From IMG/VR virus record IMGVR_UViG_3300025806_000072, positions 1 to 38,218 of that record: a stretch of 38,218 nt of DNA. The stretch is one strand, 5' to 3'. The notes beneath the pieces are model-generated. The model saw only the letters and a list, made by a program, of their open reading frames with translations, searched no databases and was not told the DNA's origin. Numbering within the stretch: the first letter of the stretch is position 1; the number at the start of each line of letters is the position of its first letter. Made by a program: the position numbers and the translations under genes. The stretch comes from a virus. Positions 18,236-35,658 of the stretch are shown here, piece after piece.

Positions 18236-18249
18236 CGTATTATAATACG
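18236..18249. promoter_or_regulatory. Perfect 14-bp palindrome in divergent promoter region
   Basis: CGTATTATAATACG is its own reverse complement, so each strand carries TATAAT. It sits in the 46-bp gap between two divergent gene starts (18224 leftward, 18271 rightward). For the leftward gene the TATAAT ends 14 nt before ATG, leaving a short leader with GAGG. It could be a shared -10 element, an operator, or both. Confidence 0.5.
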
Positions 18250-18255
18250 AAAAAA

Positions 18256-18266
18256 AGTGTATTTTT
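18256..18266 (+). promoter_or_regulatory. GTGTAT-type late promoter candidate, rightward
   Basis: AGTGTATTTTT lies with GTGTAT at 18257-18262, exactly 8 nt before the ATG at 18271. The same arrangement is found before leftward genes at 29076 and 35315. If the TATTTT part acts as a -10, transcription would start at or next to the start codon. Confidence 0.4.
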
Positions 18267-18270
18267 CAAT

Positions 18271-18732
18271 ATGGCTGGCTTTTTATCTTCATCACAAATA
18301 TCTGAGATAGAATCTTTATATGGTACTCTCCACGAAACATTCGCTCAAAAAATAACCGTTTACAAGAACGGAAAGAAGACGCTTATCGCCCATGATCCCA
18401 AGTATAACTCAATATACAGCAGGAATGATTTGGGCAAAAGAGATAGCGTCGAGTATACTGTAGTATCTGAAACTTTCGATGCTAGGATATATTATATCAA
18501 AACAGAAGAAGAGTTTTTTAATAATTATAAAAGCCAAACAAAAGTAATTCTTCCTAAAGGGTCTGTAAAGGTAGTAGTAAAAAAAGAAGCCTTCGATTAT
18601 ATACAGGAAGCAAGAAGAGTTGAATTCGATGGCAGGAGGTTTACCATACATACAGATGGTGCTCCTTACGGACTGACGTCCAATCTGTTTTATACATTTT
18701 ACTTCACTCCACTTGACGAAGCTACAGATTAA
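18271..18732 (+). CDS. Head-tail connector / head completion protein (putative)
   Basis: This 153-residue protein opens the rightward block. It has a short helical N-terminus followed by mainly beta strands (KITVYKNGKKTLIAHDPKYN ... KVILPKGSVKVVVKKEAFDY). This is the pattern of small head-closure or stopper proteins of siphophages. It comes first in the order connector - neck - tail completion - tube. Its stop overlaps the next start as TAATG, suggesting coupled translation. No database family is claimed. The role is inferred from size, predicted fold and gene order. Confidence 0.6.
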   Translation: MAGFLSSSQISEIESLYGTLHETFAQKITVYKNGKKTLIAHDPKYNSIYSRNDLGKRDSVEYTVVSETFDARIYYIKTEEEFFNNYKSQTKVILPKGSVKVVVKKEAFDYIQEARRVEFDGRRFTIHTDGAPYGLTSNLFYTFYFTPLDEATD

Positions 18733-19310
18733 TGATCAGAATACCAAAAAGCGTAATTAAAAATATAGAGAGGAAGGCTCAAAAAGTCAAAAAGAAGGAC
18801 TTCCAAAATGTTTTTAAAAAAAGATTCGAAGAGACTAAAGCCGAAATGCTTCAGGAGTTCCTTTCTCATCCTGTCACGGTTGAGCTTTTAGGAGGGAATT
18901 CAAGTTCAAACATTAGCGGGACATTGGGAGGCCAATCTAACCTGTTCGCTTTTATTGGTTTCAACGCTACTGATAAGCCTGTAGATCAGATATTAAAAAT
19001 ACTAGAACAAACGAGCTTCAAAGATACTGGAGAATCAAATGCTGGAAGAAAATTTACAGTCATGATTCCCACCTCAGAAGAGATATTTTTGGCAACGCCC
19101 ATGCCTTGGGCAGCTGGTAGAAGTTGGGCTAGCGGTATCGAAAGAGGCATATCTGGATTAGGTTATTTACTAAATAAATCAAGTGCATCAAGTAGATCTG
19201 GTGTAGCTATACAAGCAGATAGAAAGGTTCGTACGGCCAAATTTCAAAACGTTCCATACATTTCGGCCCTTCTGAACAAGTACAAAAAAAAGTTTAAAGA
19301 AATGTCATGA
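18732..19310 (+). CDS. Neck / tail completion protein (putative, HK97 gp10-like position)
   Basis: This 192-residue protein has a strongly basic helical N-terminus (VIKNIERKAQKVKKKDFQNV) and a mixed C-terminal domain with MPWAAGRSWASGIERGISGL. The size, basic helix and position between the connector and a larger neck protein resemble HK97 gp10-type head-tail joining proteins. It overlaps its upstream neighbour by TAATG and its downstream neighbour by ATGA, so all three are probably translated as a coupled unit. The family assignment is inference. Confidence 0.55.
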   Translation: MIRIPKSVIKNIERKAQKVKKKDFQNVFKKRFEETKAEMLQEFLSHPVTVELLGGNSSSNISGTLGGQSNLFAFIGFNATDKPVDQILKILEQTSFKDTGESNAGRKFTVMIPTSEEIFLATPMPWAAGRSWASGIERGISGLGYLLNKSSASSRSGVAIQADRKVRTAKFQNVPYISALLNKYKKKFKEMS

Positions 19311-20179
19311 TCGAGCAACATCACCATAAAGTAACAAACTCATTTATTCTTTGGTTTGATAATTACTTATTAGACAAAGGTCAGGCCTACAGCAACAAAA
19401 CAGGTGTTCAATTTGAGCATTATGAAGATGCCCGTCTCGATTCTGGTTATCAAGCCTATGGAAGTCCCTACAAGCAATGGGTAACTGATTCTTCAATTCC
19501 TGGAGCAGTAATAGCTGACGGAGTCACTGTCGGAAACACGCCTTCAGGCGTATACGAATCTGGGATAACAGGAAGAAGCGGTATGGCTTTAGATTTCGAT
19601 AACGGCAGAGCTTTGATCGAAGGAACAAACAAGAATTATAACATCACATGTGATTTCGCTGTAAAAGACTTCAACGTATACTTTACCAACGATACCGAAG
19701 AAGATTTAATCGTAGAAAACAAATACGAACTAAACTCAAGAATATATTCGGAGCCAGAAGGGCACATTGAACCTTACGACCAAGTAGTCCCTGCTGTATT
19801 TATAACTACAGCGACATCACAAAACAAAGGTTTTGCTTTTGGCGGCATGGAAGAAACAACAATTACAATAAGTGCTTCGGTTTTGGCGGAAGACAGCTAC
19901 CAATTAGACGGAGTGCTTTCTATATTTAATGACTCAAGAAACGAGTGTTTTTCTTTGATTCCTATGTCCGCACATCCATTCAACGAATTCAACGATTTAA
20001 AAAGTGGAACTTATAACTATAAAGATCTCTCAAAAGAGCACGACAAGTGTAATAGTTTATATGTCAACGATGTAACCACATCAAAACTGACAGACAGGGC
20101 AAGAAAATCTTTATCTAATGATATGTTCGTTGGCTTTATAGATTTCGAACTTAAACAACATAGATTTAGACACCAATAA
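19307..20179 (+). CDS. Neck or tail terminator-like structural protein (putative)
   Basis: This 290-residue protein is predicted to be mainly beta and directly precedes two tail-tube genes, the usual place of the tail terminator. It is longer than usual terminators (about 130-200 residues). The middle part (residues about 40-90, rich in Gly, Tyr and Ser) may be an insertion, and the C-terminal region (DDLKSGTYNYKDL-type, then SNDMFVGFIDFELKQHRFR) ends in strands. No motif identifies it with certainty. It starts by ATGA overlap with the previous gene. Confidence 0.5.
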   Translation: MIEQHHHKVTNSFILWFDNYLLDKGQAYSNKTGVQFEHYEDARLDSGYQAYGSPYKQWVTDSSIPGAVIADGVTVGNTPSGVYESGITGRSGMALDFDNGRALIEGTNKNYNITCDFAVKDFNVYFTNDTEEDLIVENKYELNSRIYSEPEGHIEPYDQVVPAVFITTATSQNKGFAFGGMEETTITISASVLAEDSYQLDGVLSIFNDSRNECFSLIPMSAHPFNEFNDLKSGTYNYKDLSKEHDKCNSLYVNDVTTSKLTDRARKSLSNDMFVGFIDFELKQHRFRHQ

Positions 20180-20228
20180 ATTTCACAAACCCCCAAAACA
20201 ACTGTAACCATTTTAAATAATCATAGCT

Positions 20229-21395
20229 ATGGCAAGAAATAGAGTAATTTATCAATCAGAAGCACTTTTCGTCAGTAAAGAGTATAACTCAACTGGACTC
20301 AGTGATCACACGCAACTTCATCGTGTACAAAGTGCTAATTACGGTTTTACAATCAACCGTCAGGACGTTAACCAGTATGGCAACCTCGCCAGAATTGATT
20401 CTTTGGTGTTGGAACCACCAACGGTCAACTTCGACATTAGTTATTATGTAACTAACGGATACAACGAAAGAGCGTTGGATTTCGCCGTCGAAAACACATT
20501 CAATACAACTAAAGCACAATTTGCATCTGGTCACTTAGGTGCAGGTTCTGGGCAAAACTTCTACATTCTTACTGTAGACGAAGGTAAAGACGCAAACCTC
20601 AATAGGGCAGCTGGTGGTACAACCAACACTGTTATTGGTTTGGGCAATTCATTCCTTACGGATTACACCCTTGACCTTTCTGTTGGATCTCTCCCAACTG
20701 CTACAGCGTCCTTCGAAGCTTCAAACATTCTTTCTGACGCCACTGTATCTGGAAACCTTGGACTTAAGGCCTTTACTGGTATTAAAAGTCCAGGAGTAGA
20801 CCCAGTTAATGGAGATTCTATACCATTCGAAGTGCAAATTCCTTATGCATCAGGAAACTCACACACTGGAGATTATGTTGCAGACGCCGAAGACCAACTT
20901 TCAGCTCTTAGACCTGGAGACATCACACTTGATCTTTCTAGCTTCGATGGGGAGGTTCTCACAAAGTTAGACGGAACATCAGGCATTCACATTCAGAGCG
21001 CTTCTCTCTCTCTTCCTCTTTCAAGAACGCCAATCGAAAGACTTGGATCTAAGTTCCCATTTGCCCGAGTCGTCGACTTCCCAGTTAACGCTACTCTCAC
21101 AGTAAACGCTATTGTTAACACAATGGAGGCTCAAAACCTAGCAAGCATGATCAGTGGTTGCGGACAAGGTAACCTTAGAGATGTTACCATCACCATGAAA
21201 GAGTGTGGAGGAACCACCAATGGAATGATCTTCGGATTGTCTGGATGCACAATCGACTCAGAGAGCTTCTCTTCCAGCATTGGCTCAAACAAGAGTGTTG
21301 ACCTTACATTCTCCACTCAAATTGGCGGAACAAAGGATGTATCAAAAGGAATTTTCGTAAGCGGAAACAACGACACCAAGCTTCCTTGGGAATAA
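20229..21395 (+). CDS. Major tail tube protein, copy 1
   Basis: This 388-residue protein is paralogous to the next gene. Shared blocks are TINRQDVNQYGNLARIDS (residues about 41-58), FLTDYTLDLSVGSLPTA (about 142-158), RPGDITLDL, and SLPLSRTPIERLGSKFPFAR (about 258-278). Codons are more biased toward C-ending forms (AAC, TTC, CTC) than in the tail-tip genes, as expected for an abundant virion protein. Position after the neck genes fits the tail tube. The leader is AT-rich without a Shine-Dalgarno. Together with copy 2 it could form a mixed or alternating tube, or one copy may be an alternative form. The tube role is inferred from paralogy, abundance-type codon use and gene order. Confidence 0.8.
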   Translation: MARNRVIYQSEALFVSKEYNSTGLSDHTQLHRVQSANYGFTINRQDVNQYGNLARIDSLVLEPPTVNFDISYYVTNGYNERALDFAVENTFNTTKAQFASGHLGAGSGQNFYILTVDEGKDANLNRAAGGTTNTVIGLGNSFLTDYTLDLSVGSLPTATASFEASNILSDATVSGNLGLKAFTGIKSPGVDPVNGDSIPFEVQIPYASGNSHTGDYVADAEDQLSALRPGDITLDLSSFDGEVLTKLDGTSGIHIQSASLSLPLSRTPIERLGSKFPFARVVDFPVNATLTVNAIVNTMEAQNLASMISGCGQGNLRDVTITMKECGGTTNGMIFGLSGCTIDSESFSSSIGSNKSVDLTFSTQIGGTKDVSKGIFVSGNNDTKLPWE

Positions 21396-21428
21396 TATCA
21401 AAAAGTAAACAATAAACATTTTTAAAAC

Positions 21429-22565
21429 ATGTCAAGAAATAGAGTAATTTACCAATCAGAGTCTCTTTATACAAGTAAAGAGGTAAACTCCACTGCCACT
21501 GGAGATCACCATGAGCTAATCAGGGTTCAAAGCGCAAACTATGGATTCACCATTAATAGACAGGACGTTAACCAATACGGCAACCTTGCTCGTATTGATT
21601 CGCTTGTTCTAGAACCACCAACTGTAAACTTCGACTTTTCATACTATCTTACAGATGGACTCAATGAAAAAGCCTTAGGTTTTGATATATCCAACACCTC
21701 TCAGTTCGTTAGCGGGTTTTTGGAAACCTCTAGCGGCAAGAACTTCTACATAGTAACTTCAGATGAGGGCCAAGACTCTACAACGTTTGTGGAAAACGAA
21801 GAATACAGCCTTATTGGAATTGGTAATGCATTCCTTAGTGATTATACTGTGGATCTTTCTGTAGGCTCACTTCCTACGGCAACAGTATCCTTTGAAGGTT
21901 CAAACATCAACTCTCAAAACGGTTCCGTAACAGGAACAGTTCCTTCAGCTTTTGCTCTTACTGGAGCTCTTCCTTCTGTCGACCCAGAAGACGGAACCAT
22001 TATCGCTGGATCAACTAGTATCCAAGTGCCTCAAAACACTGGCCAAGACGGACCTACAGCATTAAGACCTGGAGATATTGTTCTCGGTTTTGACGGTTTT
22101 GACGGAGGCGCTGCAGAATCTGGAACGCTAACATCTCTTGTTGGTGCTGGAGGATTCCACGTTCAGAGTGCATCTATTTCAGTACCTCTCTCAAGAACAC
22201 CTATTGAGCGTGTAGGATCAAAATTCCCATTCGCGCGTGTTGTTGACTTCCCAGTTAACGCCACAATGACTGTAAACGCTGTTCTTAATGAAATCGAAGC
22301 TGGAAACCTTGCAGATCTTATCGCTGGTTGTGCTAGCTCAGAGGGCAAAGAAGTTTCTATCCTACTTAATCAATGTGAAGGCGACAACGCAATCAAATGG
22401 ACGCTCAAAGGAGCTACCCTTGATTCCGAGAGTTGGTCTTCTAGTGTTGGTTCTAACAAAACAGTTGACATCACCTTTGGTGTCCAACTTGGAGGAATCG
22501 AAGATATCGAAAGAGGTATCATTTGCAGCGGCGCTGGCAATACAAGGCCAGTATTCGGTGTATAA
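21429..22565 (+). CDS. Major tail tube protein, copy 2
   Basis: This 378-residue protein is a close paralogue of the preceding gene, with almost identical N-terminus (RNRVIYQSE), TINRQDVNQYGNLARIDSLV and PLSRTPIERVGSKFPFARVV blocks. The segments between the blocks (for example residues about 75-120 and 165-215) differ strongly, suggesting surface loops that diverge while the tube core is kept. It is the last gene of the rightward block and is followed by a strong bidirectional terminator. A third close copy is on the minus strand at the left window edge. Confidence 0.8.
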   Translation: MSRNRVIYQSESLYTSKEVNSTATGDHHELIRVQSANYGFTINRQDVNQYGNLARIDSLVLEPPTVNFDFSYYLTDGLNEKALGFDISNTSQFVSGFLETSSGKNFYIVTSDEGQDSTTFVENEEYSLIGIGNAFLSDYTVDLSVGSLPTATVSFEGSNINSQNGSVTGTVPSAFALTGALPSVDPEDGTIIAGSTSIQVPQNTGQDGPTALRPGDIVLGFDGFDGGAAESGTLTSLVGAGGFHVQSASISVPLSRTPIERVGSKFPFARVVDFPVNATMTVNAVLNEIEAGNLADLIAGCASSEGKEVSILLNQCEGDNAIKWTLKGATLDSESWSSSVGSNKTVDITFGVQLGGIEDIERGIICSGAGNTRPVFGV

Positions 22566-22601
22566 AACTTTCGCTGTTTGTGTTTGTTATATAAATGAAA
22601 A

Positions 22602-22619
22602 CCCCGCCTTAGGGCGGGG
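22602..22619. terminator. Bidirectional intrinsic terminator
   Basis: A CCCCGCC / GGCGGGG stem with a 4-nt loop is followed on the plus strand by a T-rich tail (CTTTCTTTTG) and preceded by AAAA, which gives a T tract on the minus strand. It lies between the rightward tube gene (stop 22565) and the convergent leftward gene (stop 22663), so it can end transcripts from both sides. Confidence 0.9.
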
Positions 22620-22662
22620 CTTTCTTTTGTCCAGTTGTTTCTGGCTATGTTGATTTTTAAAA

Positions 22663-23115
22663 TTAATCAGCAGCTTCTATACCTCCAACCTGTCTAGGCT
22701 CGGATTGGTACATGTTGTATTGTGCTACTAACATATCTAGGCTTGCTTTAGCGTCTCCAGCCATACCGCGAATTACTTTTGCGGTTTCGTTCTTATTAGT
22801 GAACGTCACCCTGCTCTCGCCATCGCTTATTGAGGCTATGCTATTTGAATCTGTCTCACATGTGCCTATAATGCCACGTAGAGCGTTCCTAGCCTTCTTG
22901 GAGTAGTAATTGTATAGATAGAGCTGCTTATACACAGCTTGCGCCTCAGAGTCCAATTCTTGAGCATCTATGCAGAACGATGTGTTGATCATAGTATTTA
23001 ACAACCCAAGGTTAGCCTCTAGCCAACACTCTATAGATTGTAAACTATTAAGTTCCGAGTCATTATCAAACTCGCACTCCATTATTTCCTTAGCAAGGTC
23101 TTCTAAAACAGCCAT
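22663..23115 (-). CDS. Head completion adaptor-like protein (putative)
   Basis: This is a 150-residue, mainly helical protein (SLQSIECWLEANLGLLNTMI, then a Tyr-rich QAVYKQLYLYNYYSKKARNAL stretch). It is the last gene of the leftward head operon, after the capsid genes, where helical packaging adaptors (gp6/gp15 type) are usually encoded. I infer an adaptor or other small virion protein; no family motif is claimed. A GTGTAAT element lies 11 nt before the ATG. Confidence 0.5.
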   Translation of the reverse strand: MAVLEDLAKEIMECEFDNDSELNSLQSIECWLEANLGLLNTMINTSFCIDAQELDSEAQAVYKQLYLYNYYSKKARNALRGIIGTCETDSNSIASISDGESRVTFTNKNETAKVIRGMAGDAKASLDMLVAQYNMYQSEPRQVGGIEAAD

Positions 23116-23125
23116 CTTATAAGAG

Positions 23126-23134
23126 ATTACACTA
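23126..23134 (-). promoter_or_regulatory. TAGTGTAAT late promoter candidate
   Basis: On the minus strand TAGTGTAAT occupies the short gap before the gene starting at 23115, with 11 nt between GTGTAA and ATG. It matches the elements at 34373 and 35650. Confidence 0.4.
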
Positions 23135-23138
23135 AGAA

Positions 23139-23681
23139 TTAAATTTCTCCCAGTATTCTAAGGGTTTCTGCGTGTTTTGGATTATTAGGGTCCAACTGAA
23201 CTACAGAACTTGCCTCTGGCATGATATTCCTCATGTTATTCTTGTTCGATGCATTGAATTCCTTCAACAAACAAGCTTTCAATTCAACTTGATTCATGAA
23301 TGGATTAATACCCACCTTATAAGCGAGGTCTCTCATGTCGCTATAAGTCATACCTTTGATTTTGTTCTCAAAAATATCTGCCTCATTAGTACCAAAAGGG
23401 TTAACCTCGTCAACACCAAGGATCTTTTCAAGCTTAGACATTTTTTCCCTAAACTCTGGAGTGTTTACCTCGTTATTAGCTTTCATCTCATTGATCTCGT
23501 CAATAAGGGTTTTCTTTTTTGGCTTTGGCTCCTCAGCAACTTCTTTTTTAGCTACTGCTTTCTTAGTCTTCTTTGCAGACTTCTTGCTTTTCTTTGAGGC
23601 TTTAGGCGTAAGGTCTGCACACTCTTGCGACTTATCTACACCGTAAGATACGTCCATTTTCTTTGAGTTTTCTTCTTCCAT
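23139..23681 (-). CDS. Lysine-rich hypothetical protein downstream of capsid gene
   Basis: This 180-residue protein has an N-terminal part (about 25-60) extremely rich in Lys/Ala (KASKKSKKSAKKTKKAVAKK), typical of flexible, DNA- or RNA-binding tails. The C-terminal half holds MTYSDMRDLAYKVGINPFMN followed by QVELKACLLKEF, which resembles a SAP/HeH-type helix-extended-loop-helix. A role in packing or binding DNA inside the head, or in the virion interior, is possible but not proven. A terminator separates it from the capsid gene upstream, and it has its own promoter candidate 9 nt before ATG. Confidence 0.65.
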   Translation of the reverse strand: MEEENSKKMDVSYGVDKSQECADLTPKASKKSKKSAKKTKKAVAKKEVAEEPKPKKKTLIDEINEMKANNEVNTPEFREKMSKLEKILGVDEVNPFGTNEADIFENKIKGMTYSDMRDLAYKVGINPFMNQVELKACLLKEFNASNKNNMRNIMPEASSVVQLDPNNPKHAETLRILGEI

Positions 23682-23686: not shown

Positions 23687-23696
23687 TATTATACGT
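23687..23696 (-). promoter_or_regulatory. ACGTATAAT late promoter candidate
   Basis: On the minus strand ACGTATAATAATATC precedes the ATG at 23681. TATAAT ends 6 nt before the ATG, so transcription would begin at about the start codon. It lies just after the terminator at 23721-23748, which supports a separate transcript. Confidence 0.5.
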
Positions 23697-23720: not shown

Positions 23721-23748
23721 AAAGGCCACTCCGTTAAGAGTGACCTTT
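23721..23748 (-). terminator. Intrinsic terminator after major capsid gene
   Basis: On the minus strand an 11-bp stem AAAGGTCACTC / GAGTGGCCTTT (one G-U pair) with a 6-nt loop is followed by a run of T. It lies 25 bp after the capsid gene stop (23773). The G-U pair replaces a mismatch on the other strand, so it is best as a leftward terminator. Confidence 0.85.
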
Positions 23749-25568: not shown

Positions 25569-27110
25569 TTAAGAAATTTCAATGTTACTGCGATCAAAAG
25601 CGGAGGCGAACTTCTCTTTCAAGGAGGTCTCTTCGCGTGATACAGTTTCGTTAGAGTTTGCAATTGCAGTTTCGGTAGACTCGACACTGTCGAGGATTTC
25701 CTCAGTTGTCTTTTCGACAACCTCTACTGCTTCGTCAGGAGTTTTAGTAAGTCTCTTTTGGACTTCTTCCTGAATACGTGCTTCAATCTGCTTGTCGAAC
25801 TCAGCTTTGGCTTCCTTGCTCTTGTGCTTCCAGACAACATCCATTTTGTCTTGGAAGGAAGCGAAGGCCTCTTCAGTTTCTTCAACAGACTTCAGCTCGG
25901 AAGCTAAAAACTCTCTGTCTTCGTCTTCTAGATCAAATTTTTGATCTAGTACGTCCATACGCTCGTTAAAACGAGCAACCGCTTCTTCAGCCTTTTGACA
26001 GGACTCATATTCAGCGATTTTTGTTTGGGCTTGCTCAAACTTAGACTTTAATTCTTCGACTGAAGATTTAAGTTCCGCATGTTCGGTGGCTACAGCCTCT
26101 TTTTCTTCTTGTGCTTTAACAAGTTCTGCACGGAAGTGTTCGTCTTTTTCCTTGATAGCATCAGTAAAGGTGCTGGTCATGGAGGCGATTGCTTCCTGTG
26201 AGAACTTCTTGTCGGCAAGAAGATCCTTCAGTTCGTCGATAACTTTTTCAGTTTCCATAGAATTATTCTTTTTAAGGTTTACATTAGTTTTTTTACTTTG
26301 TGAAATATTTTTATCTCTTTTGTCCTTTATAATAACAGGATCTCGCCGCTCATCCTTCATATAAATGCCTTTGACATCTGCTGCAGGATTAGTTGTGTAC
26401 CCTATACCTAAAGGATAAATTTTTCCTTTGATGAGTCTATTCACTGACTCGCCCTTGTCTGTTTTTCCAGATCCACCGTAAGCTTTTAAATAACCTACCA
26501 TGTCTTCCATTTCGTCTGGGTCTGAAATAATTCTTGATTCATTCAATTTATCACTTCCAACTGCCAGAACAAATTCTGAGAAACCAACCTCCCAACTTGT
26601 AGATATCATATGATGACACCCTCCGTCTTCGTCTACGGACTTTTCAAGAGCTTCAGCAAAAGTGCTGTTAGCTGATTTGTAAACAACCGCCCCAAGAGCA
26701 ATGTTGAATGGTCCTTTAGATTTTCTGGCTTCAGATTCTGAAATTATTTTACTAGATCCATAGTCACTCCAACCAGCGGTTGCGATATGTCCTACGATCT
26801 TTTCCTTGTCATGCTCGATGTTTGTCGGCTTGTGCAGGAAGTTTTTGGTATAAGCGACTGCGGTCTCTGAGTCTATGCCGTCACCATTCTTATTGAATGT
26901 ATTAACAACGGCGGCATTAAATGCCACACCCATAAGATCTATGTTGCTTTCGAAGTCAATACCTTTTGGTATTAAGCTTTCTAAATTATGAAGTGAAGCC
27001 TCAGAAATAAAAGCATCGTTTATCTCGCATGGAGAAATACTTGCTTCAAAAGTTGTCGTGTATTTGTAATCCACTTTATTGGCTTTAGATAGGCTCTTCT
27101 TGTTTTTCAT
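25569..27110 (-). CDS. Prohead protease fused to scaffold protein
   Basis: This 513-residue protein has an N-terminal protease domain (about 1-265) with the His/Ser pair of herpesvirus-like head proteases: NIEHDKEKIVGHI (His100) and ISTSWEVGFSEF (Ser170 or Ser172). From about 285 it is a long coiled coil (TEHAELKSSVEELKSKFEQA) with an acidic end and a basic C-terminus (SLKEKFASAFDRSNIEIS) that probably binds the capsid protein. Met285 (ATG at 26256-26258) could start a separate scaffold of 229 residues, as in lambda C/Nu3. The start overlaps the portal gene by 26 bp. The protease matures the head and degrades the scaffold. Confidence 0.85.
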   Translation of the reverse strand: MKNKKSLSKANKVDYKYTTTFEASISPCEINDAFISEASLHNLESLIPKGIDFESNIDLMGVAFNAAVVNTFNKNGDGIDSETAVAYTKNFLHKPTNIEHDKEKIVGHIATAGWSDYGSSKIISESEARKSKGPFNIALGAVVYKSANSTFAEALEKSVDEDGGCHHMISTSWEVGFSEFVLAVGSDKLNESRIISDPDEMEDMVGYLKAYGGSGKTDKGESVNRLIKGKIYPLGIGYTTNPAADVKGIYMKDERRDPVIIKDKRDKNISQSKKTNVNLKKNNSMETEKVIDELKDLLADKKFSQEAIASMTSTFTDAIKEKDEHFRAELVKAQEEKEAVATEHAELKSSVEELKSKFEQAQTKIAEYESCQKAEEAVARFNERMDVLDQKFDLEDEDREFLASELKSVEETEEAFASFQDKMDVVWKHKSKEAKAEFDKQIEARIQEEVQKRLTKTPDEAVEVVEKTTEEILDSVESTETAIANSNETVSREETSLKEKFASAFDRSNIEIS

Positions 27111-29076
27111 TACTGTGATATAGAATTGCTGCTGAATAATTATCTAGTTCGTGCTTTGCCGCTATTTCTAAAATTTCAGGCAAAACATGCAGGTCTTGAA
27201 TCTCTTCTAAGTTAGATACACATGAAAGAGCCTTTTGTGTCCATTTTTCAACATCTGTGGAACATACTATAGCTTCGCACAAGCTGTCCAACATTTTTTC
27301 GTTCTTCTTTGTGAACCTTTTGATGTTTAACTTGTCTTTCATTAAGCCCTTAATAGAGCCTCTTGCTGCTTCAAGCTCGGCTATTGTTTTTTCTATTTCC
27401 TTTCTTGAATAATTTGCTTCTGAGTTAACTTGAGGTGAGCCACTTGTTCCTTCTGGTCTTCCAGCTTGCCCATTTGGTCCGCTTGGCTCTGAACTTTCAG
27501 CTCCTTCGACCATAGGTACGCCGCCAACGATAGGGTTGTAATAACCTTTCTCTCTCTCTTCTACAAACTTCTCTTGAGACGATGAGATATCATCAACTTT
27601 AGGAAACTTGCCAGTGTGGAACATTTCCATACCTTGCTGCGGAGTAATAACGCCGAGTTCCATGAGTCTTGTAGCTACTCTCATGAGTTGTGTCTCGTCT
27701 CTCATATCAATATCTTTAAATACTGCGGTTGGATAAGATCTAAACCCTAATTCAACAGCAACCCGTTTAATTTCTTTTTGTAAGAAGTCTGATAGGAAAG
27801 CATTCCTTGCCTCTTTAAGCCTGTCAATAAAGATTTGCGCCTTAACCTGAGTGGCTCCATACTTCTCTTCTCCAACCACTACGTTTTGCAGTCCTTGCTT
27901 GATATCCTCATTTAAAGTCTTGTATTTTTCTGAACCAAGCACCCTGTTAAGGTCTGGAATCACGAAATCAGCTTTTGTTGTATAATCAGAAACAAGAACA
28001 CGCCCAACACTTTCATTTTTGAAAAGGTTTTGCATGGCATTTAAGTTTTGAGCATTAATTCCCCCTTTATCTGGCTCTGCGCCCATTGTGATAAGAAGAA
28101 TAACATTCTCTACTGTTCTGGTTATAGCTTGATCCATTTTCTTGAGCTCAAGCTTCGCGTTTATGTCTTCAAGAACGGCGTAACCAAATGGGATAGCAAA
28201 AGGTTCGTAATCCTGCTTCTTGTAAAACGAATGAGATATCCTTTCTGGACTAAGTTCTATACTAAGTCCGTCTATTCCGTATTGACCGCTCTTGATTTCT
28301 TTTTGTACATCTGGCGGCAATGAATCATAAATCTCTTGGTCTTCTTCGGTAGATGGGTTTTGCAGTCTAGCCATCTCATACTCAGAAAGAACCTTTTGAT
28401 AGTTTCCAGCCTGAAATGTAGAAGATTTTTTCGCTATGATGTCATAAGGGTTCAATAAGATATATCTAATTGGTACTTTATTCTTTGCGCCGTTCTTAGG
28501 GGCTACTGAATTGATTAGTTTAATGAAATCCTCGGCTTTAAATTTTCCATCAAGGCGATACATGAAGATATTACCACTCCTGTAATACTCTCTAAAGTAT
28601 TGGTCTTTAAGATTGCTAAGGTTAATCTTTTTAAACCACTCTTCGAAGAAATCCCTGCTCTTCTTAGTTCCTCCTTCAAGAAATAATTCTGTATTTGCAA
28701 ATTCTGACATTATGTCCACAGCATTACGGAAAACAGATACGTTTGCGTAAGCTTTTTGACAAAGCTCTATAGCCTCCCTTACATCAATACCATCTTCTGA
28801 ATATTTATAAGGCAACAAACCCCTCCTTATGCTGGAGAACCTATCTATAGTATTGCTTAATGCAGATCTGTTTACCCTGCTTGCTGGTTGTCCTACGTTG
28901 GACTTTCTTGAGTAAGAAGCACTAGATGTACTTTTGTAAGATGCAGAGGAGACATAAAAAGGGTCCCCTACTATATCTGGAGCATACTCTTCCTGACTTG
29001 CCACTGGCCCTTGTTGCTGCTGCTCTTCGAACTTTTTCCAGTAGTCCGATTTCTTGTTATACTTTCTCTTCGCCAT
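27085..29076 (-). CDS. Portal protein
   Basis: This 663-residue protein forms the ring through which DNA enters and leaves the head. Supporting features are its position after the terminase and before the protease, a typical size, the pattern YREYYRSGNIFMYRL-like core at about 160-180, IRYILLNPYDI, a long helical region (NAKLELKKMDQAITRTVENV, about 325), and a C-terminal coiled region. A Gly/Ser/Pro-rich linker lies at about 535-570. The first 80 residues are basic and Ser/Tyr-rich and probably disordered. The start is the ATG at 29076, with a TATAAT element ending 5 nt upstream and no leader space. Confidence 0.9.
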   Translation of the reverse strand: MAKRKYNKKSDYWKKFEEQQQQGPVASQEEYAPDIVGDPFYVSSASYKSTSSASYSRKSNVGQPASRVNRSALSNTIDRFSSIRRGLLPYKYSEDGIDVREAIELCQKAYANVSVFRNAVDIMSEFANTELFLEGGTKKSRDFFEEWFKKINLSNLKDQYFREYYRSGNIFMYRLDGKFKAEDFIKLINSVAPKNGAKNKVPIRYILLNPYDIIAKKSSTFQAGNYQKVLSEYEMARLQNPSTEEDQEIYDSLPPDVQKEIKSGQYGIDGLSIELSPERISHSFYKKQDYEPFAIPFGYAVLEDINAKLELKKMDQAITRTVENVILLITMGAEPDKGGINAQNLNAMQNLFKNESVGRVLVSDYTTKADFVIPDLNRVLGSEKYKTLNEDIKQGLQNVVVGEEKYGATQVKAQIFIDRLKEARNAFLSDFLQKEIKRVAVELGFRSYPTAVFKDIDMRDETQLMRVATRLMELGVITPQQGMEMFHTGKFPKVDDISSSQEKFVEEREKGYYNPIVGGVPMVEGAESSEPSGPNGQAGRPEGTSGSPQVNSEANYSRKEIEKTIAELEAARGSIKGLMKDKLNIKRFTKKNEKMLDSLCEAIVCSTDVEKWTQKALSCVSNLEEIQDLHVLPEILEIAAKHELDNYSAAILYHSNEKQEEPI

Positions 29077-29081: not shown

Positions 29082-29090
29082 ATTATACAC
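29082..29090 (-). promoter_or_regulatory. GTGTATAAT late promoter candidate at portal gene
   Basis: On the minus strand GTGTATAAT is followed by AGGTT and ATG. The -10-like hexamer ends only 5 nt before ATG, so a start site 6-7 nt downstream would fall on the start codon. No recognisable -35 is present; two 19-bp direct repeats lie just upstream. Confidence 0.6.
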
Positions 29091-29100
29091 CCAAAAGTCG

Positions 29101-29140
29101 AAAGTTTAACTTTAACTTTCAAAAGTTTGACTTTAACTTT
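29101..29140. repeat. Two 19-bp direct repeats upstream of portal promoter
   Basis: AAAGTTTAACTTTAACTTT (29101-29119) and AAAGTTTGACTTTAACTTT (29122-29140) differ at one base and are 21 bp apart, two helical turns. Each contains the inverted repeat AAAGTT-N-AACTTT. The second copy overlaps the 3' end of the small gene at 29133-29402. The spacing suggests a protein binding site (activator or operator) for the portal promoter; a weak structured terminator is the alternative. Confidence 0.55.
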
Positions 29141-29402
29141 GGTATTTAACTTTTATGACCATAGTTTCGTCTCCATCTGTTTGTGTTATGTATGTTTCTC
29201 CTTTTTTGTGGAGCTCATTCATAGCTTCTTCTGAAATGGTCATTTCGTGGTCATATTCTCTCTCCTCAGTATCATCGCGGTCGTCAGATTCTTTATTATA
29301 ATCTTCGTTTGACTTAATTGTCATAAAGCGATCATTTGACAATTGAATTGTGGCGACAAATTTGCTGGTTTCTTTCTCTTTGTTTTCTTCAGGTAAACTC
29401 AT
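29133..29402 (-). CDS. Small acidic hypothetical protein
   Basis: This is an 89-residue acidic protein (MSLPEENKEKETSKFVATIQ at the N-terminus, a DDRDDTEEREYDHEM acidic patch, then a beta C-terminus ETMVIKVKYQS). I do not recognise a family. I choose the ATG at 29400-29402 rather than an in-frame GTG at 29415-29417, because that GTG lies inside the TAGTGTATAAT promoter candidate and the ATG sits at the same distance from the element as in other genes. It lies between large terminase and portal, so it may act in packaging. Confidence 0.65.
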   Translation of the reverse strand: MSLPEENKEKETSKFVATIQLSNDRFMTIKSNEDYNKESDDRDDTEEREYDHEMTISEEAMNELHKKGETYITQTDGDETMVIKVKYQS

Positions 29403-29408: not shown

Positions 29409-29419
29409 ATTATACACTA
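29409..29419 (-). promoter_or_regulatory. TAGTGTATAAT late promoter candidate
   Basis: This is the most complete copy of the element. TAGTGTATAAT is on the minus strand, with TATAAT ending 6 nt before the ATG at 29402. It fills the gap to the large terminase stop at 29424. A leaderless transcript is predicted. Confidence 0.6.
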
Positions 29420-29423: not shown

Positions 29424-31283
29424 TTAATCAATAAACATAGGCGTGAATGTACCTTGGTTTGTTTCAATCTTGTCATCAGTCATATCGTAATGTACGTTCA
29501 ACATCCAATTGCCAAGTATTAAAGCGGAATAGGAGTCTTTTCTTGCTTTGTCTGCACCTCTTTGCTTTCTTAAGTTTAAAGGAAGGTCGAAACTTTGAGT
29601 TCCTTGTGTCGACGTAGAAACCTGAACCATAGCACACTCCACTTTTATCAAATCCATCATATCTTTCTGATGCTCTACAAAGTCAATCATTTTTGAGGCC
29701 TCTGAAGATTCATTATAGTTGTTTATGAACTTTAATTTTTTTATTGGGATATTTGACTTCCTTTGTTTGTTGTAGTCGTCATCCATAGCCGCGCCAGCAA
29801 AGAATATTCTCTTGTGATCAAAAGAAGCCTGAAGAAGTTCGTTTGCATACCTTATCCATTTAGAACTAGGCTTCCTTAAGAATACGAAAGTCCTATTGTC
29901 CTTGTTGTACTGCCTCTTTAAATCACGAAGACCTTTATCGTAGTTTTGGTGATCGTCTAAATCGGCATCAATCAAGTTTAGTTTTATTTTTTTATCTTTA
30001 AAAATACTACTCTCGTTACATGAGTTTAAGAACTGGACACCGCCATTGTAGTCACCAACCACAGAAACAATATTGAAGTTTTCTAGTATGTAAGCCATAT
30101 AGTTAATGTGTGTTTTCAGGTTAGATCCTGATAAAGCATAACTATGAACTATTGTACCCTTTTTGGTTTCCTTATTAAGCTTAATAACCATCATGGCAAA
30201 GTCATCTGACCCGTCACTCTCTGACCAAGAAGGGTCAAAGGCTAATATATATTCATCCCCAGGTTGACCTTTAACTTCCACACATTGACCTTCTCCATCT
30301 GGTATTGTACATGCTGCCATCTTACTAACCTTGAAGTAACCAGAGCTATCGTCTGTAAACACAGCCATAAATTCTCTATCAAACTGAGACTGACTCATTG
30401 TTGCTTTTGCTTGATCAATAAGGTTCTGGTCGTATAGTTGGGGCGGCGCACAGTCATAACTAAAGTGCATTATAGTTCTATGAGCCTTGTCTTGCTCGTT
30501 TTCATTGAGAATCAATGACTCATATTGAGAATACATCTTGAATAAATGTTCGAACCTGTAAGACGCAGAAGACAAACCAATAATTTTGTTGTTCGGCCAC
30601 TTATGACGGTCCTCTTCCTTCATCTTTCCTTGTTTAATCATCTCTGTTTCAACATCATGAATTTCTTGTCTTTCTGTTGGGTTTTTAATAACAGACAGAA
30701 ACGGCATTATAACCTCGTTCAAAACCTTCTCTGGCATAAGAAGAAGTTCATCAATAATCATCCGCTCAAAACGGAAACCACGAAGCTTCTCTCCGTCGCC
30801 AAGAGGCAAAGCAGTAATTTTACTTCGACCGAGTTCCATTACCCATTGATCATTAGCTTTTGACACCCTTGTAATACATTGAGAAAGAAATTCGGCCTTT
30901 GGGCTCTGTGCTATCTCTTCCATCTTAGTAAATATCATTTTTGACTGTCGAAAAGACTTAGATATAATTCCAATGTGAACACCTTGGTTTAAAATAGCGT
31001 CTAATAGCGCAAAAACGGCCGTAGAGAAGCTTTTGGACATTCCGCGACTCCATATGCCCAAAAAGTAATCGGTCTCCATCATGGCCTTTATGGACATATG
31101 CTGGAAAGGGAACAATTTTACCCCAGTAATAAACTCAGCCGCGAAAGATGGGTTTTGCCTTAAGAATTTATAAAGCAATAATTTAGCTTCCTCTTCTTCG
31201 AGGTATCCATCCATTTCCAGAATCTCTTTATTGATGTCTGGGAACCTATTTCTAGATTCTTGTATTCCTGCTTCCCAACTCAT
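29424..31283 (-). CDS. terL: Terminase large subunit (ATPase and nuclease)
   Basis: This 619-residue protein packages DNA into the prohead. The Walker A-like motif is IWSRGMSKSF (residues 77-86, Lys84), and Walker B is RMIIDE (174-179). The nuclease domain shows the three expected acidic sites: LAFDPSWSESDGSD (Asp350), VVGDYNGG (Asp411) and ARKDSYSALILG (Asp583). The Walker A is the deviant phage type, with Arg before Gly and Lys five residues after Ser79. It starts by ATGA overlap with the upstream nuclease gene, so translation is coupled. Length and motif spacing are typical. Confidence 0.95.
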   Translation of the reverse strand: MSWEAGIQESRNRFPDINKEILEMDGYLEEEEAKLLLYKFLRQNPSFAAEFITGVKLFPFQHMSIKAMMETDYFLGIWSRGMSKSFSTAVFALLDAILNQGVHIGIISKSFRQSKMIFTKMEEIAQSPKAEFLSQCITRVSKANDQWVMELGRSKITALPLGDGEKLRGFRFERMIIDELLLMPEKVLNEVIMPFLSVIKNPTERQEIHDVETEMIKQGKMKEEDRHKWPNNKIIGLSSASYRFEHLFKMYSQYESLILNENEQDKAHRTIMHFSYDCAPPQLYDQNLIDQAKATMSQSQFDREFMAVFTDDSSGYFKVSKMAACTIPDGEGQCVEVKGQPGDEYILAFDPSWSESDGSDDFAMMVIKLNKETKKGTIVHSYALSGSNLKTHINYMAYILENFNIVSVVGDYNGGVQFLNSCNESSIFKDKKIKLNLIDADLDDHQNYDKGLRDLKRQYNKDNRTFVFLRKPSSKWIRYANELLQASFDHKRIFFAGAAMDDDYNKQRKSNIPIKKLKFINNYNESSEASKMIDFVEHQKDMMDLIKVECAMVQVSTSTQGTQSFDLPLNLRKQRGADKARKDSYSALILGNWMLNVHYDMTDDKIETNQGTFTPMFID

Positions 31284-32200: not shown

Positions 32201-33239
32201 CGTCTTGACTTATCCCTAATACTCTAGCCTTCCATTCAGCCATTCCCTCAAGTCTTTCGGCCTCTTTCTTGGCTGTCATTTTCTGCATCTCTGCCATCCT
32301 TACCATGTTGTCTCTCTCTTCTTTCTCTTGAAACAATTGAACAATTGACAAAATAGAAGCATTGTCTTTGGTTTTGTTTTGCATTCTTGTAGACCTGTCG
32401 CCTTGGAGTTTTTTAGTAAGGTTTTCTATTCTTCCTTCACACTGGTGGTATTCAGAACTTTTTGCCTTAATAATTTCAGCGAGACGTACGGACATTTCTG
32501 TTTGATCGTCTGCGACGTCAAACATATCGTTAAGTTTGTTGAGGTGCTTGCTCACAACCTCCAAGTTAATGATTTCCTTGCATACGTTTAGGTAAAGGTT
32601 GATTTCGTCTGCCGTAAGGTCAGGCTTATCCCATGTAAGACGTATAAATTCCTGCTCGAATAAATCTCTGTCACTTTTGTCTAAGTAATTATTCATTATC
32701 TTAAGGAAACGTGAGTTGTTTAAGTGAATGCCAAGCCTCTCGACACAAACTTGGTATTGTCTATTTAATTTGTTCTCGTCAAACGTATTGCCAGTTGCAT
32801 CGTTAATCTTTTTTATGATTCGGCTAGTGGCTTTCGGGGCAATGTAAGAATCCAAAGCGCCGCTGTCTTGAGTAGGCAGGAAATCGGGGTTGACAGTCTG
32901 TATGTGCGCGAGAACAGTTCTTTGCTCATTGCTTAATGCTGTAACGTTTTTATGAGGGAATACCAACTTAGCTATTGCGAGTGAAGAAATTCCGTCTCTA
33001 GCTTGATCTATAATAAACTCGCCTTGTTGTTCAGTTAGTTCTATTTTTTTGCACTTTTTGGGCTTTGTTGTCTTGTAGTTGAGCCCTTTCTCGACTAAAA
33101 AAGCAGCAACCAACTTACCCTCTTTGTTTCTGCCGTCTAAACTATCGTCCTCAAAACATCTTTTGGTCAGGATGTTTAAATCTGTTACCTTTTTATAGTT
33201 TTTAATTAAAAAGTCTTCTTGTTCTGTTGTTAGTTTCAT
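32190..33239 (-). CDS. Probable terminase small subunit
   Basis: This 349-residue protein is placed before the nuclease and large terminase. Two helix-turn-helix-like regions lie in the first 110 residues (LTTEQEDFLIKNYKKVTDLN and LTEQQGEFIIDQARDGISSL, with SSLAIAKLVFP). A helical middle (about 150-290) could oligomerise, and a charged coiled C-terminus (FQEKEERDNMVRMAEMQKMT) follows. This is the layout of small terminases, which recognise packaging sites. It has one of the best Shine-Dalgarno sequences here (GGAG, about 8 nt before ATG) and lies 2 bp after the sigma factor gene. It is longer than many small terminases, so the call is by context. Confidence 0.65.
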   Translation of the reverse strand: MKLTTEQEDFLIKNYKKVTDLNILTKRCFEDDSLDGRNKEGKLVAAFLVEKGLNYKTTKPKKCKKIELTEQQGEFIIDQARDGISSLAIAKLVFPHKNVTALSNEQRTVLAHIQTVNPDFLPTQDSGALDSYIAPKATSRIIKKINDATGNTFDENKLNRQYQVCVERLGIHLNNSRFLKIMNNYLDKSDRDLFEQEFIRLTWDKPDLTADEINLYLNVCKEIINLEVVSKHLNKLNDMFDVADDQTEMSVRLAEIIKAKSSEYHQCEGRIENLTKKLQGDRSTRMQNKTKDNASILSIVQLFQEKEERDNMVRMAEMQKMTAKKEAERLEGMAEWKARVLGISQDDVI

Positions 33240-33241
33240 TT

Positions 33242-33943
33242 TTAATCTCCGTCGTTTATTATTATGTCGTTTTCTTGAATAATTTCAGAAGCTTTCTCCT
33301 GAAACATCTTTTTTAAATTCTTTACTTGCCTATACCCTGCTTTACGCTTCTTCTCGTTGGTTTTGTATCCCATCATTTTTGCCACATCCTCCTCAGTCGC
33401 ATCTTTGAAATACAACATCTCATAAGCAGAGTAGTGAACCTCGCTAAGACAAATTTTCATGTAATGATTTAATTTCTCAATGCACGAATTAAAACACATT
33501 TCACTTTCTGGGTCGTAACTCATCTCATGAAGATGGTTCTCAGAAGGGACAGCAATCTTTAAATCAAATGCCGCCTTTTTAGTCTTCGCCCACTTAGCAT
33601 ACTTGCTACACTCGGAGTTTTGGGATTTACTAGGTGTATAAGAACAAGCCTCATCCCCCATATTAAATTCACAATTAGAACATGGCTTAATATAATTACC
33701 ATAATGGTTCCTAACCAGATTTCTTATCTGATTTGTAACTATAATATTGATCCAAGGCTCCAAGGGCCTCTTTTGATCCCACATATCCCACTTATTGTAG
33801 ATATGTAGTTTTATTACCTGCTCTACATCTTCAAAGTCAAACCAAGCAATACAATCCAATCTCCAACGGCTCCGTTGTTTTCTGATTGCTGTTTCTATTA
33901 CTTCTATATAATCCTCAAATCTTTTTTTATCGCCGTTTGTCAT
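33242..33943 (-). CDS. Phage sigma-70 family factor with zinc-binding insertion
   Basis: This is a 233-residue protein. Residues about 30-85 resemble sigma region 2 (FDFEDVEQVIKLHIYNKW, PLEPWINIIVTNQIRNLVRN), which melts and reads the -10 element. Residues about 162-215 resemble region 4 (LSEVHYSAYEMLYFKDATEE, DVAKMMGYKT, then a basic helix), which reads a -35 or an activator. Between them is a Cys cluster (Cys88, Cys91, Cys100, Cys112) likely to bind zinc. It overlaps the zinc-ribbon gene upstream by 17 bp, and the TerS gene begins 2 bp after it. I infer that it directs late transcription from the GTGTATAAT elements, as T4 gp55 does for TATAAATA. That function is not shown by sequence alone. 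Confidence 0.75.
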   Translation of the reverse strand: MTNGDKKRFEDYIEVIETAIRKQRSRWRLDCIAWFDFEDVEQVIKLHIYNKWDMWDQKRPLEPWINIIVTNQIRNLVRNHYGNYIKPCSNCEFNMGDEACSYTPSKSQNSECSKYAKWAKTKKAAFDLKIAVPSENHLHEMSYDPESEMCFNSCIEKLNHYMKICLSEVHYSAYEMLYFKDATEEDVAKMMGYKTNEKKRKAGYRQVKNLKKMFQEKASEIIQENDIIINDGD

Positions 33944-34253
33944 TAATAAAGTCTTCTAAGTTTTTAGAACCTCTATTTCTGACTCTTGAGTTTTTTGGCT
34001 CTTCTCCCGCTAAAGATCCAAGGGTAAATATATTTTCGTCGTACTGTTCAACATCAAATTCAAGCCTATCTATATCAGGAATGAAATCTATAGACGTTTC
34101 GTCATCAGATAGTTCTTCCTCTACAAATTTAGGCTTAGACAAACTGCTTTTTGAAACGGGACCAGTGGTTACGCCGCATTTAGAACAGAAATTGGGCTTA
34201 GAGAGAGCAAAGCTCATCTTGTTGCCACATTCGGTACAAAACATATGGTTCAT
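33927..34253 (-). CDS. Zinc-ribbon acidic protein, possible transcription cofactor
   Basis: This 108-residue protein has an N-terminal zinc ribbon (FCTECG and FCSKCG; Cys6, Cys9, Cys23, Cys26) followed by an acidic, probably disordered linker (EEELSDDETSIDF) and NIFTLGSLAGEE, then a basic end. It overlaps the sigma factor gene, so the two products are likely made together. Zinc ribbons plus acidic tails occur in transcription cofactors, and phage late sigma factors often need a partner (T4 gp33 is one). That role here is inference. A second in-frame ATG lies at 34244. A CCGTATATT element precedes it. Confidence 0.65.
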   Translation of the reverse strand: MNHMFCTECGNKMSFALSKPNFCSKCGVTTGPVSKSSLSKPKFVEEELSDDETSIDFIPDIDRLEFDVEQYDENIFTLGSLAGEEPKNSRVRNRGSKNLEDFINDKRR

Positions 34254-34260
34254 ATATCTT

Positions 34261-34269
34261 AATATACGG
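34261..34269 (-). promoter_or_regulatory. CCGTATATT promoter candidate
   Basis: On the minus strand CCGTATATT lies with TATATT ending 7 nt before the ATG at 34253. It is a weaker match to the shared late element, with 10 nt between CCGTAT and ATG. Sequence from here to 34394 (141 bp) holds no gene, only AT-rich DNA and the element at 34373. Confidence 0.35.
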
Positions 34270-34372
34270 TTTTATTGGGTTTTTTCAAAAAAAATCAGTT
34301 AGTTATGAAATATTTTTTTATATTAGCGCTTTTCGCAGCTTTAGCGTAAATCTTTACTTACTGATAATATAT

Positions 34373-34381
34373 ATTACACTA
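34373..34381 (-). promoter_or_regulatory. TAGTGTAAT element in the gap before the zinc-ribbon gene
   Basis: TAGTGTAATATATATT on the minus strand lies just after the tube-like gene stop (34395) and about 120 nt before the zinc-ribbon start. It matches the elements at 23126 and 35650. If active it would give the transcription unit with sigma, terminases and nuclease its own late start. Confidence 0.35.
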
Positions 34382-34394
34382 ACAAAAAATAAAT

Positions 34395-35315
34395 CTACAA
34401 AAGTACTTCGCTTATGGCGGCTTGGGTCTTGATTACATCACCGCCCTGAATACCATAACTATAAGTATTGACTTTCGCACCACTATTGGCCGCGAATTCA
34501 AAACCGTCATTATATTCTGGCAGTATCTTGTTGCCATCTATGTCTTTAACAATTAAAGCAACGGGCTCTTGTAATTTTATACCATCATAATCGGCGAAGT
34601 TACTTATCCCAGTTGATTCTAGCTGTATTTGAGATTCTACAGCGTCAATCAGAAAATTTGTAGGCTTAGTACTTCCTAATGTATAAACTGGTGTTCTAGC
34701 ATACCTCTTAGAAAAAGACATACTAGGAATAACGTCCCCATAAACAACATCATCATACACTCCGCTTAACTCACAGGTGTTGGCGGTTATTATTGAGCGT
34801 CCACTCATATAATCATTGTAAGAATTAAAATTAACATCCGCCTCTTGTTTTGTTTCTCCCTCGGTAGGTGGATCGAAACACTTAAAGTTAGCGTTCACCT
34901 TTAAGGGGGCAAAAGCAGAAACTTGCACAGTATAATCCTGAATATAACACCTGTTGTAAATATTTGCGCCAATTCTGATCGGAAAATAATTAGCTCCCGT
35001 TCCATTACCCAAAATGTTGCCTTTATAATTAGCACCGTCCATTAAAAACCCGTAAACATTCTGACCATCTACTCCTTTTTTAGGATAAGAGTAAAAATTA
35101 AATGCTAAACTAATACTACATGAAGAATCAGATGTATAAACATATTGATTGTCTTTATCAATACTAGATCCCAACCTCCTGTTCGGGATAGACGCAGATG
35201 AATAACTCACAGAGACGCCGTCAGCATAAAGCATGAAGTCTTTATGAAAACCCCAATCACTAACAAAATCTCTATTCCCGTACCCAATATATACTGGAAA
35301 ATTCTTATACGTCAT
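34395..35315 (-). CDS. Outlying tail-tube-fold protein
   Basis: This 306-residue protein belongs to the same paralogue family as the tube proteins. CYIQDYTVQVSAFAPLKVNA (residues about 123-142) aligns with the FLTDYTLDLSVGSLPTAT block, and SMSFSKRYARTPVYTLGSTK (about 198-217) with SLPLSRTPIERLGSKF. Its N-terminus (FMLYADGVSVSYSSASI) is closer to the tube-like domain of the 1733-residue LRR fusion. It sits far from the tail cluster, between a small basic protein and the transcription genes, which is unusual. Probable role: a specialised ring such as a tail tip or neck ring. A GTGTATAAA element lies 8 nt before its ATG. Confidence 0.75.
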   Translation of the reverse strand: MTYKNFPVYIGYGNRDFVSDWGFHKDFMLYADGVSVSYSSASIPNRRLGSSIDKDNQYVYTSDSSCSISLAFNFYSYPKKGVDGQNVYGFLMDGANYKGNILGNGTGANYFPIRIGANIYNRCYIQDYTVQVSAFAPLKVNANFKCFDPPTEGETKQEADVNFNSYNDYMSGRSIITANTCELSGVYDDVVYGDVIPSMSFSKRYARTPVYTLGSTKPTNFLIDAVESQIQLESTGISNFADYDGIKLQEPVALIVKDIDGNKILPEYNDGFEFAANSGAKVNTYSYGIQGGDVIKTQAAISEVLL

Positions 35316-35320
35316 AAAAG

Positions 35321-35331
35321 TTTATACACTA
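35321..35331 (-). promoter_or_regulatory. TAGTGTATAAA late promoter candidate
   Basis: On the minus strand TAGTGTATAAA is followed by CTTTT and ATG (35315). The TATAAA hexamer ends 5 nt before the start codon, as at the portal gene. A leaderless mRNA is predicted. Confidence 0.55.
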
Positions 35332-35336
35332 TTTTG

Positions 35337-35636
35337 TTACGCAGTGCGCTTCAATAACCTTTTTAAGCAATTAGGGGAAATATCATACAGCCATAGCCCG
35401 AAATTAATCATTTTTACCAAATTTTTTGGTATTTTATACCTCCTAAGTAGTTTTATAAAGCTTTTTCTGTTGTGCTTGGCAGTGTTAGGGTATTTAAACG
35501 TCAACCAATCATGGAATTTACCACCACGGTCAATCAAAGCCATGGTTTCCTCGCCGTATTTCTTCAAAATCCACTTTCTGAAGAATTTTGGTAGTGTAGC
35601 TCCGTCGCTTTTGTCGTAATTTTCCCACTCAGCCAT
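35337..35636 (-). CDS. Small basic hypothetical protein
   Basis: This is a 99-residue, strongly basic protein with aromatic residues (GGKFHDWLTFKYPNTAKHNR, KSFIKLLRRYKIPKNLVKMI). I do not recognise a family. It lies between the GIY-YIG-like gene and the outlying tube-like gene, with a GTGTAATAAT element 14 nt before its ATG. Its charge is compatible with nucleic-acid binding or a small virion protein. Confidence 0.6.
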   Translation of the reverse strand: MAEWENYDKSDGATLPKFFRKWILKKYGEETMALIDRGGKFHDWLTFKYPNTAKHNRKSFIKLLRRYKIPKNLVKMINFGLWLYDISPNCLKRLLKRTA

Positions 35637-35649
35637 AATTGCGTAAATT

Positions 35650-35658
35650 ATTACACTA
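35650..35658 (-). promoter_or_regulatory. TAGTGTAAT late promoter candidate
   Basis: TAGTGTAATAAT on the minus strand, 14 nt before the ATG at 35636, lies in the gap after the GIY-YIG-like gene (stop 35667). It matches the elements at 23126 and 34373. Confidence 0.4.

Follow-up and report, generated by a model that had tools for sequence, protein, structure and literature searches.

A GTGTA element at a sharply bounded distance from start codons as the likely core of a promoter class for leaderless or short-leader mRNAs in a group of uncultured tailed phages

What is the short sequence containing GTGTA that stands at a nearly constant distance upstream of several start codons in the virus record IMGVR_UViG_3300025806_000072, and what reads it? 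The record is an uncultured virus sequence of 38,218 bases (referred to below as the window, meaning the whole stretch of DNA that was analysed), which belongs to a tailed phage by gene content. A preliminary description of its sequence proposed a late promoter element located so close to the ATG codons that the mRNAs would be leaderless. The best explanation, which we consider likely, is that GTGTA forms the core of a promoter class that is recognized by a phage sigma factor and gives rise to leaderless or short-leader mRNAs.

The sequences listed in the preliminary description are all present at the distances given there. GTGTAT is separated by eight bases from the ATG codons at 29076 and 35315 (minus strand) and 18271 (plus strand), and by nine bases from that at 29402. 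ACGTAT-9-ATG at 23681 and CCGTAT-10-ATG at 34253 are present as letters, and GTGTAA variants are located 37 nt upstream of 16107, 17 nt upstream of 23115, 20 nt upstream of 35636, and near 34373. The spacing, which had been judged by eye to be too regular for chance, exceeds chance in numbers as well: the first G of GTGTA is at position −14 or −15 relative to the ATG in 4 of the 31 starts of the window, whereas dinucleotide shuffles gave a mean of 0.03 and none of 4000 reached 4. In the whole window, GTGTATAAT with one mismatch occurs 17 times against 9.3 expected, which is only a mild excess; thus, the signal is one of position and not of frequency. The six sites that had been grouped as one element do not all belong together. 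Those before 18271, 29076, 29402, and 35315 do, whereas the orthologs of the genes starting at 23681 and 34253 have no GTGTA at −14 to −21 (0/4 and 0/33, respectively). Conversely, the sites before 23115 and 35636, which had been set apart, belong to the GTGTA class, as their dissimilar ortholog upstream regions indicate. The sites of the window and the genes to which they relate are as follows.

18257–18265, plus strand: GTGTATTTT element, G at −14 of the gene at 18271; predicted start at the A of ATG, leader 0; kept in 7/7 dissimilar ortholog upstream regions
23124–23132, minus strand: GTGTAATCT element, G at −17 of gene 22663–23115; predicted leader 3 nt; 16/24 ortholog upstream regions
29082–29090, minus strand: GTGTATAAT element, G at −14 of the portal gene 27085–29076 (minus strand); predicted leader 0; 22/22 ortholog upstream regions
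29409–29417, minus strand: GTGTATAAT element, G at −15 of gene 29133–29402; predicted leader 0–2 nt
35321–35329, minus strand: GTGTATAAA element, G at −14 of gene 34395–35315; predicted leader 0; 20/22 ortholog upstream regions
35648–35656, minus strand: GTGTAATAA element, G at −20 of gene 35337–35636; predicted leader 6 nt; 3/3 ortholog upstream regions
16136–16144, minus strand: GTGTAATTA element, G at −37 of gene 7966–16107 (minus strand), which encodes a tape-measure-sized protein of 2713 amino acids; predicted leader about 23 nt, an exception to the short-leader rule; GTGTA at −27/−28 in relatives
34371–34379, minus strand: GTGTAATAT site near no called ATG, 126 nt before 34253
29424–31283: terminase large subunit

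About 150 viral loci related to the window were gathered by terminase and portal searches, and five related contigs of 92–140 kb were examined in full. The phage group carrying the GTGTA element is widespread, uncultured, tailed, and widely sampled, and its genomes are incomplete. It has no close cultured relative, since the terminase and portal match those of Bacillus and Microcystis phages at only 21–26%. Starts were called mechanically, as the first ATG of each long open reading frame, by a caller blind to the motif. The computed positions of GTGTA have a hard edge. Among 1063 unique starts, the first G is located at −14 in 93, at −15 in 42, and at −16 to −21 in 99, and at −13 to −6 in none. 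When the whole contigs were added (1554 unique starts), 160 had GTGTA at −14/−15 versus 1.9 in shuffles, and 274 at −14 to −21 versus 7.8; the 7 at −5 to −13 equal the chance level of 7.7. Three of these seven exceptions are one ClpB-like gene in three phages, each beginning with ATGATG, whose second ATG lies at 14–16 nt. After the removal of similar sequences, the counts at −14 to −22 are 52, 27, 19, 10, 9, 5, 7, 3, and 0, and those at −10 to −13 are 0, 1, 2, and 1, with about 0.9 expected per position (p ~1e-71 at −14). Control 5-mers, including the reverse complement of GTGTA, gave no positional signal. The same pattern was found upstream of genes without a homolog in the window, which contribute 42 sites at −14 to −21, and in the whole 92–140 kb relatives.

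A one-sided edge with the mode located on the edge is expected of a promoter whose transcripts begin 14 nt past the first G: any ATG lying farther upstream would drop out of the mRNA. From this edge we infer the start sites, and the bases around them point to the same place. At 14-nt sites, a pyrimidine immediately precedes the A of the ATG in 95% of cases. Of the 54 dissimilar sites lying 16–21 nt from the ATG, 31 have a pyrimidine-purine initiator step at G+14, compared to 24% at other offsets (p = 1.8e-7). The logo of 61 dissimilar 14-nt sites shows GTGTA(A/T) and, after it, a stretch rich in A/T; actual sites read GTG-TATAAT or GTG-TAATAT, which is GTG joined to a TANNNT −10 box. No conserved block lies upstream of GTGTA in this logo, which bears out the earlier observation that a −35 element is missing. 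The extreme proximity to the ATG also stands, in view of the positional edge (14 nt) and of the initiator step (G+14). The claim of strictly leaderless mRNAs does not extend to all genes: as judged from sequence, mRNAs of the GTGTA class are predicted to be leaderless or to carry leaders of 0–7 nt (under 8 nt), and a few to have longer ones.

The motif is nearly all-or-none within gene families, as the ortholog counts listed above illustrate, and in most neighbouring families it occurs in 0 of 15 to 42 ortholog upstream regions. It precedes none of the 347 starts that overlap a co-directional upstream gene, is rare where the gap is 0–10 nt, and is found before 33–59% of starts in co-directional gaps of 11–120 nt. 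The absence from overlapping starts and the all-or-none distribution indicate that GTGTA does not serve for ribosome binding. Tightly packed genes show no enrichment of Shine-Dalgarno-like tetramers upstream of them (10% versus 9–13% in controls). None of 252 motif genes has such a tetramer at −16 to −4, a weak test because the motif occupies part of this interval. In relatives, the class precedes genes for the portal, a tail protein L homolog, baseplate-like proteins, and a large Ig-domain protein, and also those for the ribonucleotide reductase small chain, PhoH, and a ClpB-like ATPase.

A candidate reader is encoded in the window.

33242–33943, minus strand: phage sigma factor with domain 2, a cysteine-rich insert, and domain 4; suggested to read the GTGTA promoters

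All 45 homologs of the protein match Pfam Sigma70_r2 (best E 1.7e-6); the copy in the window does so at 9.5e-4, under the curated cut-off. In addition, 40 of the 45 match phrog_1740, annotated in PHROG as "RNA polymerase sigma factor", and one matches Sigma70_r4_2, weakly. The best fold matches of an AlphaFold2 model are nearly all sigma factors, including those of the extracytoplasmic function (ECF) type. Domain 2 (residues 6–84) superimposes on 5uxx with a root-mean-square deviation (rmsd) of 2.4 Å over 76 residues, and domain 4 (residues 147–228) on 3hug with an rmsd of 2.9 Å; the cysteine-rich insert separates the two. A profile search against PDB sequences gave a single short match, apparently irrelevant, and no match was found in cultured phages. 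The gene is present in all 73 loci that hold both of its neighbours, and no phage RNA polymerase was detected among the large proteins scanned. We infer that the product of 33242–33943 most likely reads the GTGTA promoters.

Based on these observations, a mechanism can be proposed. The promoter would consist of GTG and a TANNNT-like −10 box without a conserved −35 element, and RNA polymerase would start about 14 nt past the first G. As the box is usually 14–21 nt before the ATG, the mRNAs would be leaderless or carry leaders of at most 7 nt, devoid of a Shine-Dalgarno sequence. The host core RNA polymerase would be directed by the phage sigma factor. The promoter of the operon containing the sigma gene lacks a GTGTA box and appears host-like, so the sigma factor could be made first and might then activate, as its regulon, the portal and tail genes together with some metabolic ones. 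We put forward, tentatively, that the sigma factor may be dedicated to leaderless transcription, with the switch in transcription coupled to one in translation: nearly all mRNAs of the regulon would start on the AUG or within 7 nt of it, in a host in which such mRNAs are a minority.

Several points weigh against this mechanism. At 15-nt sites the initiator step is at G+13, not at G+14, and therefore the start site is better given as G+13 to G+14. A few genes have longer predicted leaders of about 12–23 nt, namely that of the tape measure and, in one relative, 17937–18224. The model of the sigma factor is of moderate quality (mean predicted local distance difference test score, pLDDT, 75.5; predicted template modelling score, pTM, 0.40), and none of its Foldseek matches individually passes E 0.001. 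The protein has a domain 4, yet the GTGTA promoters have no conserved −35, and the connection between the sigma factor and the motif consists in their co-occurrence across the group. The class is also wider than structural genes, since it includes the ribonucleotide reductase, PhoH, and ClpB-like genes named above, and the designation "late" in the preliminary description is therefore not established; late timing would be plausible.

The alternative that survives best keeps the promoter class but gives it another reader, either the primary sigma factor of the host or one of ECF type, assisted by an activator or a sigma-remodelling protein from the phage; a case of this kind is known from the Thermus phage P23-45. 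A canonical −10 sequence is part of GTG-TATAAT, the conserved AAAGTTAA..TTAACTTT element directly upstream of the portal promoter could bind an activator, and the remodelling of sigma by phages in favour of −10-only promoters is known (PMC7403470); in P23-45, gp39 spares the extended −10 promoters of the phage. We nevertheless regard this alternative as unlikely, though not negligible: the phage sigma factor is universal in the group, the GTG bases are under strong constraint and differ from the usual TGn extended −10, and the ordinary −35/−10 promoters of the same phage (17937–18224 and near 37500) look different.

Much less probable is that GTGTA acts in the mRNA as a ribosome-binding or enhancer motif in place of the Shine-Dalgarno sequence. 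Such a role would account for a fixed distance to the ATG in a phage group without Shine-Dalgarno sequences, but a spacing optimum would be two-sided, and the observed distribution breaks off sharply and peaks right at the break. Furthermore, the motif is missing from overlapping starts and from most genes, is bound to particular families, and the initiator step tracks the box and not the ATG. It is similarly improbable that GTGTA is an RNA-processing site at which longer transcripts are trimmed to a leaderless form. Processing would likewise fix the distance to the 5′ end, but the box, GTG-TANNNT, has the look of a −10 element, and all relatives conserve it before the rightward member of two divergent genes, whose 46-nt gap needs to hold a promoter. 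Chance, or the copying of one ancestral upstream region together with homologous genes, to which the few sites of the window alone might be ascribed, is refuted by the shuffles, by the removal of similar sequences, and by the sites upstream of genes that have no homolog in the window.

The proposed GTGTA promoter class is not the only one in the window. The following elements belong to different classes.

34261–34288, minus strand: TTGAAA-16-TATATT, ending 7 nt before the ATG at 34253; precedes the operon holding the sigma gene
18242–18269, minus strand: TTGAAA-16-TATTAT, promoter of the divergent gene 17937–18224; conserved in 9/9 relatives
23688–23693, minus strand: TATAAT box before the ATG at 23681, behind the intrinsic terminator 23721–23748

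Orthologs of the genes starting at 23681 and 34253 have only TATAAT-like −10 boxes without GTG; at the latter, a −10-like box is found in 22 of 33. A conserved −35 was sought for gene 33927–34253 and was not consistent across relatives. The leftward gene 17937–18224 is preceded by TTGATA-16-TATAAT or a close variant in 9/9 relatives. In the divergent gap 18225–18270, the GTGTA box belonging to the rightward gene at 18271 sits in the spacer of the leftward promoter, an arrangement kept in all relatives compared, and the leftward −35 overlaps the rightward start region. The T-tail of the terminator 23721–23748 (minus strand) runs into GTGTAAATA, and this terminator is conserved in relatives before gene 23139–23681. 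Other ordinary −35/−10 promoters are TTGACA-16-TAAAAT, located before 35667–36743, and that of the gene at 37619, which reads TTGCAA-17-TATAAT in relatives and would give a leader of about 15–25 nt. A general scan for sigma-70 promoters was uninformative overall (52 found versus 48 expected). The small rightward genes at 37383, 37619, and 37923 (plus strand) have TCACTATG in common at their starts and are possibly early genes. Directly upstream of the portal GTGTA box, positions 29091–29135 (minus strand) contain direct and inverted AAAGTTAAA..TTAACTTT repeats, which are conserved in relatives down to about 60–70% portal identity; they look like an operator or activator site.

Assignment of a host through the terminase was attempted and rejected. 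The gene is present in one Flavobacteriaceae and one Verrucomicrobiales metagenome-assembled genome (MAG), and in none of 396 other Flavobacteriaceae and 288 other Verrucomicrobiales genomes; therefore, the two MAG contigs are probably co-binned phage DNA. Members with scarce Shine-Dalgarno sequences exist in both lineages. In the Verrucomicrobiales MAG contig (CALFSW010000038.1, 8162–11224; loci L186/L187), the terminase is split after residue 114 by an in-frame insert of about 400 amino acids, probably an intein. The window genes 694–1800, 20229–21395, and 21429–22565 are alike, and their homologs match the same places in relatives; they form a paralogous family of proteins of about 370–390 amino acids with several copies in relatives.

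The phage group seems to combine a phage sigma factor with leaderless mRNAs, and the hard edge makes the start site readable from the sequence. It yields predicted start sites for hundreds of genes and can correct start codons, as in the ATGATG cases. The group may offer a natural system for the competition of leaderless mRNAs for ribosomes during infection, in a lineage without Shine-Dalgarno sequences. Among the mRNAs of Flavobacterium psychrophilum whose starts have been mapped, only 5.5% are leaderless (PMC9723704), a share with which this phage group would contrast sharply should its host be a flavobacterium.

Leaderless phage mRNAs have been documented mainly in Thermus phages, and phage sigma factors mainly in T4- and SPO1-like phages. 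A limited literature search returned no report of a phage sigma class combined with promoters giving 0–7-nt leaders across an uncultured phage group. In the late system of T4, the phage sigma factor gp55 acts on host RNA polymerase at −10-only promoters before virion genes, the short box (TATAAATA) lies near the start site, and transcription needs gp33 and the sliding clamp. The likeness to T4 noted in the preliminary description holds as an analogy, in that a phage-encoded sigma factor with domain 2 occurs together with a −10-only promoter lacking a −35. It does not hold as membership, because the consensus here is GTGTA(A/T) with an A/T-rich stretch and not TATAAATA. ECF sigma factors resemble the modelled product of 33242–33943, which appears to have sigma2 and sigma4 domains and no evident sigma3; here the gene is that of a phage and contains a cysteine-rich insert. 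ECF promoters are normally bipartite with a conserved −35, and GTGTA sites would differ from them in lacking one, if they are the promoters of this sigma factor.

Late promoters specific to the phage, in which a short box keeps a fixed distance to the start site, also occur in AR9 and phiKZ (PMC5312081), but these are read by multisubunit phage RNA polymerases, and the leaders of AR9 are 26–491 nt long. In Deinococcus-Thermus, a TANNNT −10 box located a few bases before the open reading frame, with specific spacing, gives leaderless mRNA (PMC12340547); that motif serves cellular genes and lacks the GTG element. A parallel in phages is provided by the leaderless middle and late mRNAs of the Thermus phages: phiYS40 genes are made mostly as leaderless mRNA (PMC3594737), and P23-45 uses extended −10 promoters for its middle and late genes, read by host sigmaA with remodelling proteins (PMC7403470). 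The group described here would share leaderless mRNAs with phiYS40, if the prediction from sequence holds, and it resembles P23-45 in its −10-type promoters. The Thermus phages differ in their thermophilic host lineage, in which leaderless genes are common, and P23-45 differs in having a TGn extended −10 instead of GTG directly before TANNNT, and host sigmaA with remodelling proteins in the place proposed here for a phage sigma factor.

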